From: Rhodoplanes serenus | Lineage (GTDB): Bacteria > Pseudomonadota > Alphaproteobacteria > Rhizobiales > Xanthobacteraceae | Direction: 5' to 3' | Length of the DNA: 64,000 bases | NCBI GenBank assembly: GCA_945897515.1 | Contig: CAMDFO010000007.1 | Coordinates: 1 to 64,000, forward strand | Shown here: piece after piece, positions 47,233-49,401 of the stretch | Layout: every line of letters begins with the position of its first letter | How positions within the stretch are numbered: position 1 is the first letter of the stretch | Translations under genes and position numbers: made by a program | The notes under the pieces: model-generated | Seen by the model: only the letters and a program-made list of their open reading frames with translations | The model's database searches: none | What the model was told of the DNA's origin: nothing

Positions 47233-47300
47233 GTTCGTCCTCCGTTTTGGCAGTCAGTGGCTAGCGAGAGATTTTCCTGAATCGAGTTCCGCCGTTTGAC

Positions 47301-47480
47301 CCGTCATCCTGAGGTGCGAGCGCTTGCGAGCCTCCGCAAGTCGGCCTTGGCCGACTTGCGTACTCAACAATCCAATGTCGGGTAAACCCGACATTGGTGG
47401 ATGCACGGCCCCGATGGGGCAACAGCCGGGCCGTCGCCCTTCGAGGCTCGGCCAAGAGGCCGAGCACCTCAGGGTGACGG
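47301..47480. repeat. compound palindromic repeat
   Basis: Outer arms ccgtcatcctgaggtgc and gcacctcagggtgacgg (47301-47317 with 47464-47480) pair with one mismatch. Inside are a perfect 11-bp stem with a 2-base loop (47336-47346/47349-47359, gcaagtcggcc) and a perfect 12-bp stem with a 2-base loop (47372-47383/47386-47397, ccaatgtcgggt). It fills most of the gap between the NMT1-like and GntR genes. No gene seen in it. Confidence 0.8.
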
Positions 47481-48280: not shown

Positions 48281-48330
48281 TAGGCTTTTGGGATAAGCTA
48301 GTAAAGATATCATCTTATAATTTTTGCCAC
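48281..48330. promoter_or_regulatory. AT-rich divergent promoter region
   Basis: A short AT-rich stretch between the GntR start and the hairpin cluster. On the plus strand it holds a perfect TATAAT (48316-48321); the nearest TTGGGA (48288-48293) is 22 bases upstream, longer than ideal. It also contains aagatatcatctt, an imperfect palindrome (48304-48316) that could be a regulator site. It could serve both gntR on the minus strand and a plus-strand transcript through the hairpins. Confidence 0.4.
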
Positions 48331-48357
48331 GGGTTTCCGCCTTCCGGGGTGGGGTGC

Positions 48358-48581
48358 GGCGCCCGGTCGCCGTCTCGTTGTCCCCTCGGAAAGTCCGAGG
48401 GGGTGAAGCGCCGACAGGCGCTGGTGCGGAACGCCGCACCCGTGGCCCGCCTCGCGGTCGGGCCTGTCCCTTCATCGGAAGGGACGCCAGCCGATAACGC
48501 CGGCCGGCACGCCTTTCGGCGCTCCACCGCGGCATTTAACAATCCCGGGCCAAGCTTCTTGAACCCGGCATTTGCGCCGGG
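48358..48581 (+). ncRNA. candidate structured RNA: cluster of consecutive hairpins (unrecognised)
   Basis: At least seven perfect or near-perfect short stems follow each other: 48358-48371 (ggcg), 48382-48402 (cccctcgga/tccgagggg), 48407-48422 (agcgcc/ggcgct), 48423-48440 (ggtgcgg/ccgcacc), 48444-48464 (ggcccg/cgggcc), 48466-48485 (gtccctt/aagggac) and 48564-48581 (cccggc/gccggg). A perfect TATAAT box lies 37 bases upstream on the plus strand. The order fits no tRNA, tmRNA, SRP or RNase P known to me. It could be a non-coding RNA, a dispersed repeat, or folded sequence of a small minus-strand ORF (48315-48542) that reads as low-complexity Arg/Ala/Pro. Strand is a guess from the promoter. Confidence 0.35.
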
Positions 48582-48585
48582 CCAA

Positions 48586-48937
48586 TGCAGTCAGCACCTG
48601 ACAGAGCGACCCTAGTATCGCCCGGTTGATGCCCGGAACCGCCCGAGTGCGAGGTTACGAGCCCCGCCCGCAGGCCGCCGCACCCCATCCCGTTCAAAGA
48701 TCGTCTCATGAGAACGTCCCTCGGCTGGATGGGATGAAGGACTATAAAGCTATTAAAGGAATAAAGTCAATCACAGAACTCGTAACAACAGGAGCCGTGG
48801 GTAGCAGGCAATCCGAACCGAGCACCAACGGGCCACGCTCCAACCCCGCGTTCTTTCGGCGGTCCAGATAAAGGAATATCGCCTTAGATTGCTGTGGAAG
48901 TTGAGCGGGCTATATTAGGCCAACAGGGAGTCGCCTC
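48586..48937. other. gene-free stretch before hicB, partly AT-rich
   Basis: About 350 bases without a convincing gene. A stem of cccatcc with ggatggg around 48690-48732 encloses gttc...gaac. The part from 48735 to 48790 is distinctly AT-rich (actataaagctattaaagg). A 45-codon ORF at 48734-48871 reads like random sequence at its end. The last 60 bases probably hold the hicBA promoter. This may be a relic of transferred DNA carrying the toxin-antitoxin pair. Confidence 0.4.
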
Positions 48938-49174
48938 TTGGATCAAAGCCGAACCTTCGCCGTGGTGCTTGAGCCTGAGGACGATGGCGGATTCATCGTC
49001 CGCGTCCCCGCCTTTCCGGAGATCGTCACCTATGGCAAAGACGAGCGCGAGGCGCTGGCCATGGCAGAGGATGCAATCCGGCTTGTGATTGCCGACTGCG
49101 CCGCGCGCGGCGAGCCCATCTCCGGCGGCGGACCGCCGCGCATCCGCGAAATCACCGTCACACTTGCGGCATGA
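48938..49174 (+). CDS. hicB: HicB-family antitoxin
   Basis: 78 residues with the HicB RNase-H-like partial fold: VVLEPEDDGGFIVRVPAFPEIVTYGKDEREALAMAEDAIRLVI. HicB binds and silences HicA and usually represses its own promoter; this short form lacks a visible C-terminal DNA-binding domain. The start is TTG at 48938, with CAGGGAG at 48923-48929; no ATG fits. It overlaps hicA by ATGA, with antitoxin first, the reverse of the E. coli hicAB order but common elsewhere. Confidence 0.85.
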   Translation: MDQSRTFAVVLEPEDDGGFIVRVPAFPEIVTYGKDEREALAMAEDAIRLVIADCAARGEPISGGGPPRIREITVTLAA

Positions 49175-49401
49175 ATGAGCGGCTGCCAGCCGTAACAGCG
49201 CGCCAAGCGATCCGCGCGCTGGAGCGCGCGGGCTTTGTGGTGTCGCGAACGTCGGGCAGCCATTGCCGCCTCATTCACGCGCGCGATCCAACGCGCAAGT
49301 TGACGGTGCCGGTTCATAGTGGGGACCTCAAGCGCGGTACGCTGCGGGCGATCATCGCGCAATCCGGAATGACGGTAGCGGAGTTCATGGCATTGCTGTA
49401 G
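49171..49401 (+). CDS. hicA: HicA-family mRNA interferase toxin
   Basis: 76 residues of the double-stranded-RNA-binding-like fold: LERAGFVVSRTSGSHCRLIH with the catalytic His31 in GSH, then VPVHSGDLKRGTLRAIIAQSGMTVAEF. HicA cleaves mRNA independently of ribosomes until bound by HicB. The start overlaps hicB as ATGA. The key histidine is intact, so the toxin should be functional. Confidence 0.88.
   Translation: MNERLPAVTARQAIRALERAGFVVSRTSGSHCRLIHARDPTRKLTVPVHSGDLKRGTLRAIIAQSGMTVAEFMALL

Follow-up and report, generated by a model that had tools for sequence, protein, structure and literature searches.

The dispersed repeats known from bacterial genomes are mostly short palindromes. In the Hyphomicrobiales, rhizobial intergenic mosaic elements such as RIME are mosaic, palindromic and dispersed; set against RIME as it is generally described, the unit reported here differs in having a promoter-like sequence and strand-specific pairing. 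Br-REP1 and Br-REP2 of the related genus Bradyrhizobium are dispersed intergenic hairpin repeats found at ~200 sites (Br-REP1) and at least 50 (Br-REP2), with consensus sequences of ~20-40 nt (PMC5082802). Our unit is likewise a dispersed intergenic hairpin repeat, but going by the descriptions it stands apart in its length of ~430 bp, its promoter-like sequence and its multi-domain fold. The Rhizobiales-1 motif appears in the consulted table of PMC2864571 as an uncertain Rhizobiales RNA motif, not marked as cis-regulatory and with no Rfam number there; compared through this table entry, it may be the same family. The unit also resembles an rRNA leader with boxA in the order promoter, leader, boxA, and the boxA of tail-bearing copies is nearly identical to that of the rRNA leaders at loci L270 (genome G004) and L271 (genome G063). 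Unlike an rRNA leader, however, the RNA of the unit is followed by no rRNA that we could see, and the copy studied here is without boxA. Among the papers listed by searches of open-access PMC articles, we recognized no description of the dispersed RNA family, and the main texts of PMC11109978 and PMC8632094 contain none of the rhizobial or Xanthobacter group names looked for.

The window analyzed here is a stretch of 64,000 nucleotides from Rhodoplanes serenus. A preliminary description of it had singled out positions 48358-48581 as a run of hairpins that matched no known RNA. A search of the window against Rfam release 15 agreed on the latter point: no family reached the gathering score, either in the window or in 20 other loci, and the matches in the region, xerDC (15.2 bits, cut-off 72.5) and REN-SRE (13.2 bits, cut-off 41), were far below threshold. 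We consider it likely that the locus is one copy of an independent non-coding RNA gene family dispersed through Xanthobacteraceae genomes. Within this reading, sequence comparison gives good support to a family of structured RNAs present in multiple copies, and we infer that its RNA is transcribed and functional. A promoter-bearing unit of ~400 nt that keeps its fold, reaches 37 copies per genome and matches no Rfam family is of interest, since it points either to RNAs that have a function or to a mobile element for which the RNA is important.

Layout of the unit on the minus strand

The unit occupies ~430 bp of the minus strand, from window position 48770 down to ~48340, and consists of a promoter-like sequence followed by a multi-hairpin RNA of ~400 nt. 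The sigma-70-like -35 hexamer, TTGACT, lies at 48765-48770 and the -10 hexamer, TATAGT, at 48741-48746, with an 18-bp spacer between them. The structured RNA (48340-48735) would start near 48735 and end between ~48350 and 48329. Its extent is based on five other long copies, which align over 381-418 columns at 85-93%, and the similarity to orthologous loci resumes at 48328 or 48319, past the 3' side of the RNA. A typical unit would carry its own promoter, read here from the minus strand, and yield an RNA with a conserved 5' domain (P1 to P4), a long stem (P5) around an exchangeable hairpin cluster, then another hairpin (P6) and a 3' tail that varies. Helix P1 (48682-48735) lies at the putative start and pairs 48727-48735 with 48682-48690. 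Hairpin P2 (48700-48718) pairs 48713-48718 with 48700-48705, and a longer alternative hairpin is also supported. P3 and P4 together cover 48642-48674, with P3 pairing 48671-48674 with 48642-48645 and P4 pairing 48662-48667 with 48649-48654. The 19-position stem P5 (48402-48528) pairs 48510-48528 with 48402-48420 and closes the variable hairpin cluster (48423-48508), the content of which changes from copy to copy; in the window, folding predicts three stems of the preliminary description and one more in it. P6 (48383-48401), recognized in the sequence and in folds, pairs 48395-48401 with 48383-48389, and an eighth pair would compete with the last pair of P5. A CCC(C)TC.. hairpin resembling P6 comes after P5 in many of 82 copies, as judged by eye, and no hairpin followed by a U-run was evident by eye at the 3' ends of the copies.

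The five stems originally described between 48382 and 48485 can be read directly in the window sequence, with further stems on both sides. They are 48382-48389/48395-48402, 48407-48412/48417-48422 (in the family, one strand of a longer helix), 48423-48429/48434-48440, 48444-48449/48459-48464 and 48466-48472/48479-48485. Folding of 48358-48581 gave z = -5.9 on the plus strand and -7.4 on the minus strand, and none of 200 shuffles was as stable on either strand. For 48340-48738 the values were -8.3 (minus) and -6.5 (plus), and none of 100 shuffles was as stable on either strand. The extent of 48358-48581 proved too short, since the unit reaches ~48770 and is about twice that length. The hairpin run is the 3' half of a folded RNA of ~400 bases, which is probably read from the strand opposite to the one first chosen.

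The TATAAT box first noted just upstream of the hairpins does exist, at 48316-48321 of the plus strand, but it belongs to the stretch upstream of a GntR gene (48289-48328, minus strand), outside the unit. Five orthologous loci (L109, L110, L112, L113 and L115) have no RNA beside the GntR gene and keep this stretch in varied form, with the exact TATAAT in L109 and L110, which rules the box out as the promoter of the unit. Strand and start also differ from the plus-strand start near 48328 first proposed: the promoter-like sequence, together with the pairing asymmetry described below, indicates a minus-strand RNA that begins near 48735. The stretch at 48289-48328 is of the ATTATAAGATAATATCTTTACTA type, is conserved in orthologs upstream of the GntR/FCD gene, and is perhaps a candidate operator of that regulator. 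Protein coding on either strand was rejected: no frame stayed open across 400 nt in more than 13 of the 85 copies, a share that nonetheless exceeds the 5.8% of letter shuffles, and the length of the 5' domain varies by one or two bases between copies, a further point against coding.

Compensatory changes and the strand of the RNA

A sequence-only alignment of the 5' domain was made from 33 of 39 listed copies, leaving out L038 and L053 (with an insertion of ~60 nt) and the near-identical L016, L017, L051 and L056. Standard pairs filled 91.8% of the cells of 26 named pairs, which were picked by eye on the same alignment, so the figure leans towards pairing. Changes on both sides occurred in 17 of the 26 pairs and in 95 cells, compared with 33.7 in shuffles (none of 500 as high). 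On all five pairing measures the observed value was reached by none of 500 shuffles, and sliding the partners lowered pairing to 40-56%, although kinship of the copies makes the shuffle controls overstate significance. Among the 33 copies, both-side changes were present in seven of nine P1 pairs (94.6% of cells paired), two of six P2 pairs and all six P4 pairs (90.9% paired). P3 hardly varies, and its outermost pair, named as a fifth, is unpaired in 25 of the 33. RNAalifold returned P1, P3 and P4 and, for P2, a longer form incompatible with the short one; both P2 forms have some support.

Stem P5 was sought in 88 copies and was present in 82, which represent 53 distinct strand pairs. Because the search kept the best-pairing candidate in each copy, it favors pairing, and with this reservation 954 of 1007 cells were paired, compared with a mean of 889.7 and a maximum of 907 in 500 column shuffles. 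Compensatory changes among copies, the test named in the preliminary description, are present in the 5' helices and in P5, and judged by these changes the unit is a structured non-coding RNA.

The non-Watson-Crick cells of P1 to P5 indicate the strand. Read on the minus strand, they comprised 198 G-U and 27 A-C cells, where shuffled columns gave 263.6 and 96.2. As A-C is shunned far more than G-U in this reading, the RNA is placed on the minus strand; an RNA on the plus strand would give the reverse asymmetry, and DNA cruciforms would give neither. The binomial p of 1e-7 for this asymmetry ignores the kinship of the copies, and P2 and P3 add nearly fixed G-U pairs to it. The asymmetry bears on the possibility that the unit is a DNA-level repeat of the REP/BIME or MITE type, in which the palindromes matter as DNA or for spread and the RNA is functionless. 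The copies are more alike within genomes than between genomes, they lie among REP-like palindromes in genomes G148 and G004 (by eye) and their structure is mosaic, features that a DNA repeat would account for. However, a one-stranded bias against A-C is unexpected from selection on cruciforms, and in about half of the copies a promoter-like sequence stands at a fixed distance before P1. We regard a DNA-level repeat as improbable. In the RNA gene family that we prefer, the target of selection would be the RNA fold, most likely in a particle with bound protein.

Promoter-like sequences and boxA-like ends

Many copies show, on the minus strand, TTGAC, a spacer that often contains ATTCCTA, a TATA-type -10 and then P1 within a few bases. 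The frequency of this arrangement was determined in 94 copies, obtained from 101 model hits, of which 97 were carried on, by removing copies with identical first 150 nt. Of the 94, 55 have TTGAC no more than 60 nt ahead of the model start, and in 52 of them it starts at -31 to -34. A TTGAC and TATA-type pair lies upstream of 44 of the 94 copies; among 4700 positions picked at random in these loci, 20 had one. In many of the 50 copies without the pair, inspection by eye showed other sequences at this position, most often of the TTATCCCC or TTTACAAATC type, and reading these as promoters is a guess. In one G148 copy (L226), which has no promoter-like sequence, similarity to the other copies begins at about the first bases of the RNA.

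At the other end of the unit, many copies finish with a sequence like GGCTGTTTGA(A/C)AATTGAATCGG. The rRNA leader of G004 contains GGGCTGTTTGACAGGTGAATCGG, and the same sequence is present in the rRNA leader of G063. This sequence is read as boxA because of its place and its likeness to GYTCTTTAANA, the consensus published for gamma-proteobacteria (PMC5725501). The complete genome of G004 contains 17 strict motifs and none of the reversed control. The RNA is present at all 17 sites and starts 443-458 nt before the motif; since these loci were chosen by the motif, the motif implies the RNA and the converse does not follow. In the family sample, 21 of 84 copies had a similar motif, as did 38 of 4000 background windows; the first 300 nt of 88 copies had none. 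Strict sites number two in the R. serenus genome and four in G148, with none in G095 or G063. As the motif is missing from the window copy, G095 and G063, a boxA-like end is not universal in the family.

These ends raise the idea that the units are rRNA-leader-like (promoter, structured RNA and boxA) and recruit the NusB-S10-SuhB antitermination complex, with boxA-less copies having lost that end. We hold this to be unlikely for the family. If it were true, NusB-S10-SuhB could be titrated off rRNA synthesis, or transcription beyond the unit could be Rho-resistant and would often run antisense into the end of the neighboring gene; the next gene is in the opposite direction at 14 of the 17 boxA-bearing G004 copies, as called by a simple GC3 score. 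Such ends would be an unusual case of an rRNA-operon signal recurring across a genome. REP-like palindromes often come after the boxA-like RNA ends in G004 (L273-L306, by eye).

Copies, insertion sites and neighboring genes

The region 48300-48620 matches many places in its own genome. Five other long copies there share the sequence from promoter to 3' part, three of them beginning at the -35 box, and nine more share roughly 48510-48730 but have a different hairpin cluster. BLAST with the shared core matched 17 of 41 genomes, including R. serenus itself, several of them by a match of ~28 bases only. A covariance model of the 5' domain, built from 33 copies over 101 positions, found 17 copies in the R. 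serenus genome, which answers the call of the preliminary description for a copy count. Model matches were obtained in 87 of 149 genomes of the family Xanthobacteraceae, in 34 of 47 genera, with at most 27 candidates scored per genome, so that family-wide copy counts are lower bounds. When up to 150 candidates were scored in eight genomes, 24, 5, 3, 10, 13, 37, 3 and 3 copies were found. Six of these genomes (G007, G008, G002, G003, G009 and G005) are of the same genus, and the loci in those genomes are from Xanthobacteraceae, Rhodoplanes piscinae, Hyphomicrobiales, Alphaproteobacteria and Proteobacteria MAGs. A copy is also carried by a Pseudolabrys MAG locus (L148). Outside the family, the model matched nine genomes of other families among the 249 genomes of the order search and none in the 189 other genomes of the class search; it also found nothing in the six listed genomes of genus g40. 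None of 72,556 plasmid records or 50,697 phage records matched the window unit at E 1e-5, and one 5'-domain pattern had no exact match in viral contigs. For these two queries, plasmid or phage carriage was rejected.

A model search of loci covered 42 of 80 and 25 of 30 of two listings. Besides the five orthologous GntR loci that lack the RNA, the G005 ortholog of the C16 locus also shows none. A copy can still be nearby when the site itself is empty: L115 has one ~4 kb away, and in L116 the distance from copy to GntR gene is ~1.3 kb. With similar copies elsewhere and orthologous sites empty, the unit is, judged from its distribution, a dispersed mobile element in the broad sense. The 11 copies of G148 are near-identical, with a sharp left edge at TTGAC in ten. 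Their left flanks differ and yet group by shared REP-like or other repeats, and in G005 the similarity of some pairs of copies extends far upstream of the RNA, so isolated insertion does not account for every copy. We found no target-site duplication or terminal inverted repeat common to the copies and no convincing duplication in G148, where the longest string shared by the flanks of the 11 copies is 5-8 nt and the right edge is uncertain. Its spread would be that of a non-autonomous mobile element or would occur by copying from locus to locus; copying between fixed loci would also agree with the different types of promoter seen in one genome. No mobilizing enzyme was identified among neighboring proteins read by eye.

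Alternatively, the unit could supply the RNA for a mobile system of the guide or template type (retron, group II intron, IscB/TnpB or IS110 RNA) and act in trans, a reading that we judge quite unlikely. Dispersed copies of a large structured RNA would agree with it, as would one mid-RNA hairpin that varies strongly among the near-identical G148 copies (L219-L229) with its stem pairing seemingly kept (by eye). On the other hand, the Rfam search of the window and the 20 other loci was null at the gathering score, the unit has its own promoter-like sequence, and no recurrent neighbor protein was noticed when the neighbors were read by eye. A closing of the 5' end to the 3' end as in retrons was rejected because the inverted repeat of the window copy is not preserved in the other long copies (by eye).

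Of the roles first proposed for the hairpins, structured RNA and dispersed repeat both stood, on compensatory changes and multiple copies, while that of a 5' leader did not. In the window, the next, co-oriented gene encodes the GntR regulator. A riboswitch or attenuator acting in cis as the leader of such a following gene would explain the RBS-like stretch and start codon seen by eye after the RNA in some copies, but it is very unlikely, since the next downstream gene lies in the same direction in 28 of 59 copies, in the opposite direction in 24 and is unassigned in seven (by a simple GC3-score gene caller, not checked against annotation), the boxA-bearing G004 copies face mostly opposite genes, the downstream proteins seem unrelated by their N-termini (by eye), and GntR and, in most genomes looked at, serS retain their own upstream sequence beyond the RNA (serS by eye). 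Downstream genes that point either way, together with orthologous sites without a copy, indicate an independent dispersed RNA gene rather than a leader.

The tatC-serS interval differs between genomes. By eye, G001 has the long form and G007 the 3' part, and in G003, G006, G008 and G009 the variant is shorter, with P5 and the 3' module unchanged but another 5' module; the model matched in G001 only. No RNA was seen there by eye in G000, G004, G005, G012, G013, G017 and G020. TATAAG precedes serS in G001, G003, G006, G007 and G009 and also in the RNA-less G004, and was not seen in G008. The shorter tatC-serS RNA is present at L190, L191, L194 and L195, and the promoter spacers of the first three carry a CCTAGG palindrome. 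In the window, a HicB-like (PF15919, 22.7 bits, under the cut-off of 27) and HicA (PF07927) pair adjoins the RNA at 48938-49401; L110 and L112 have the GntR and luciferase-like genes side by side, without this pair. The intergenic stretch at 47290-47480, between the NMT1-type and GntR genes, is rich in palindromes and has, by eye, the look of a rhizobial REP.
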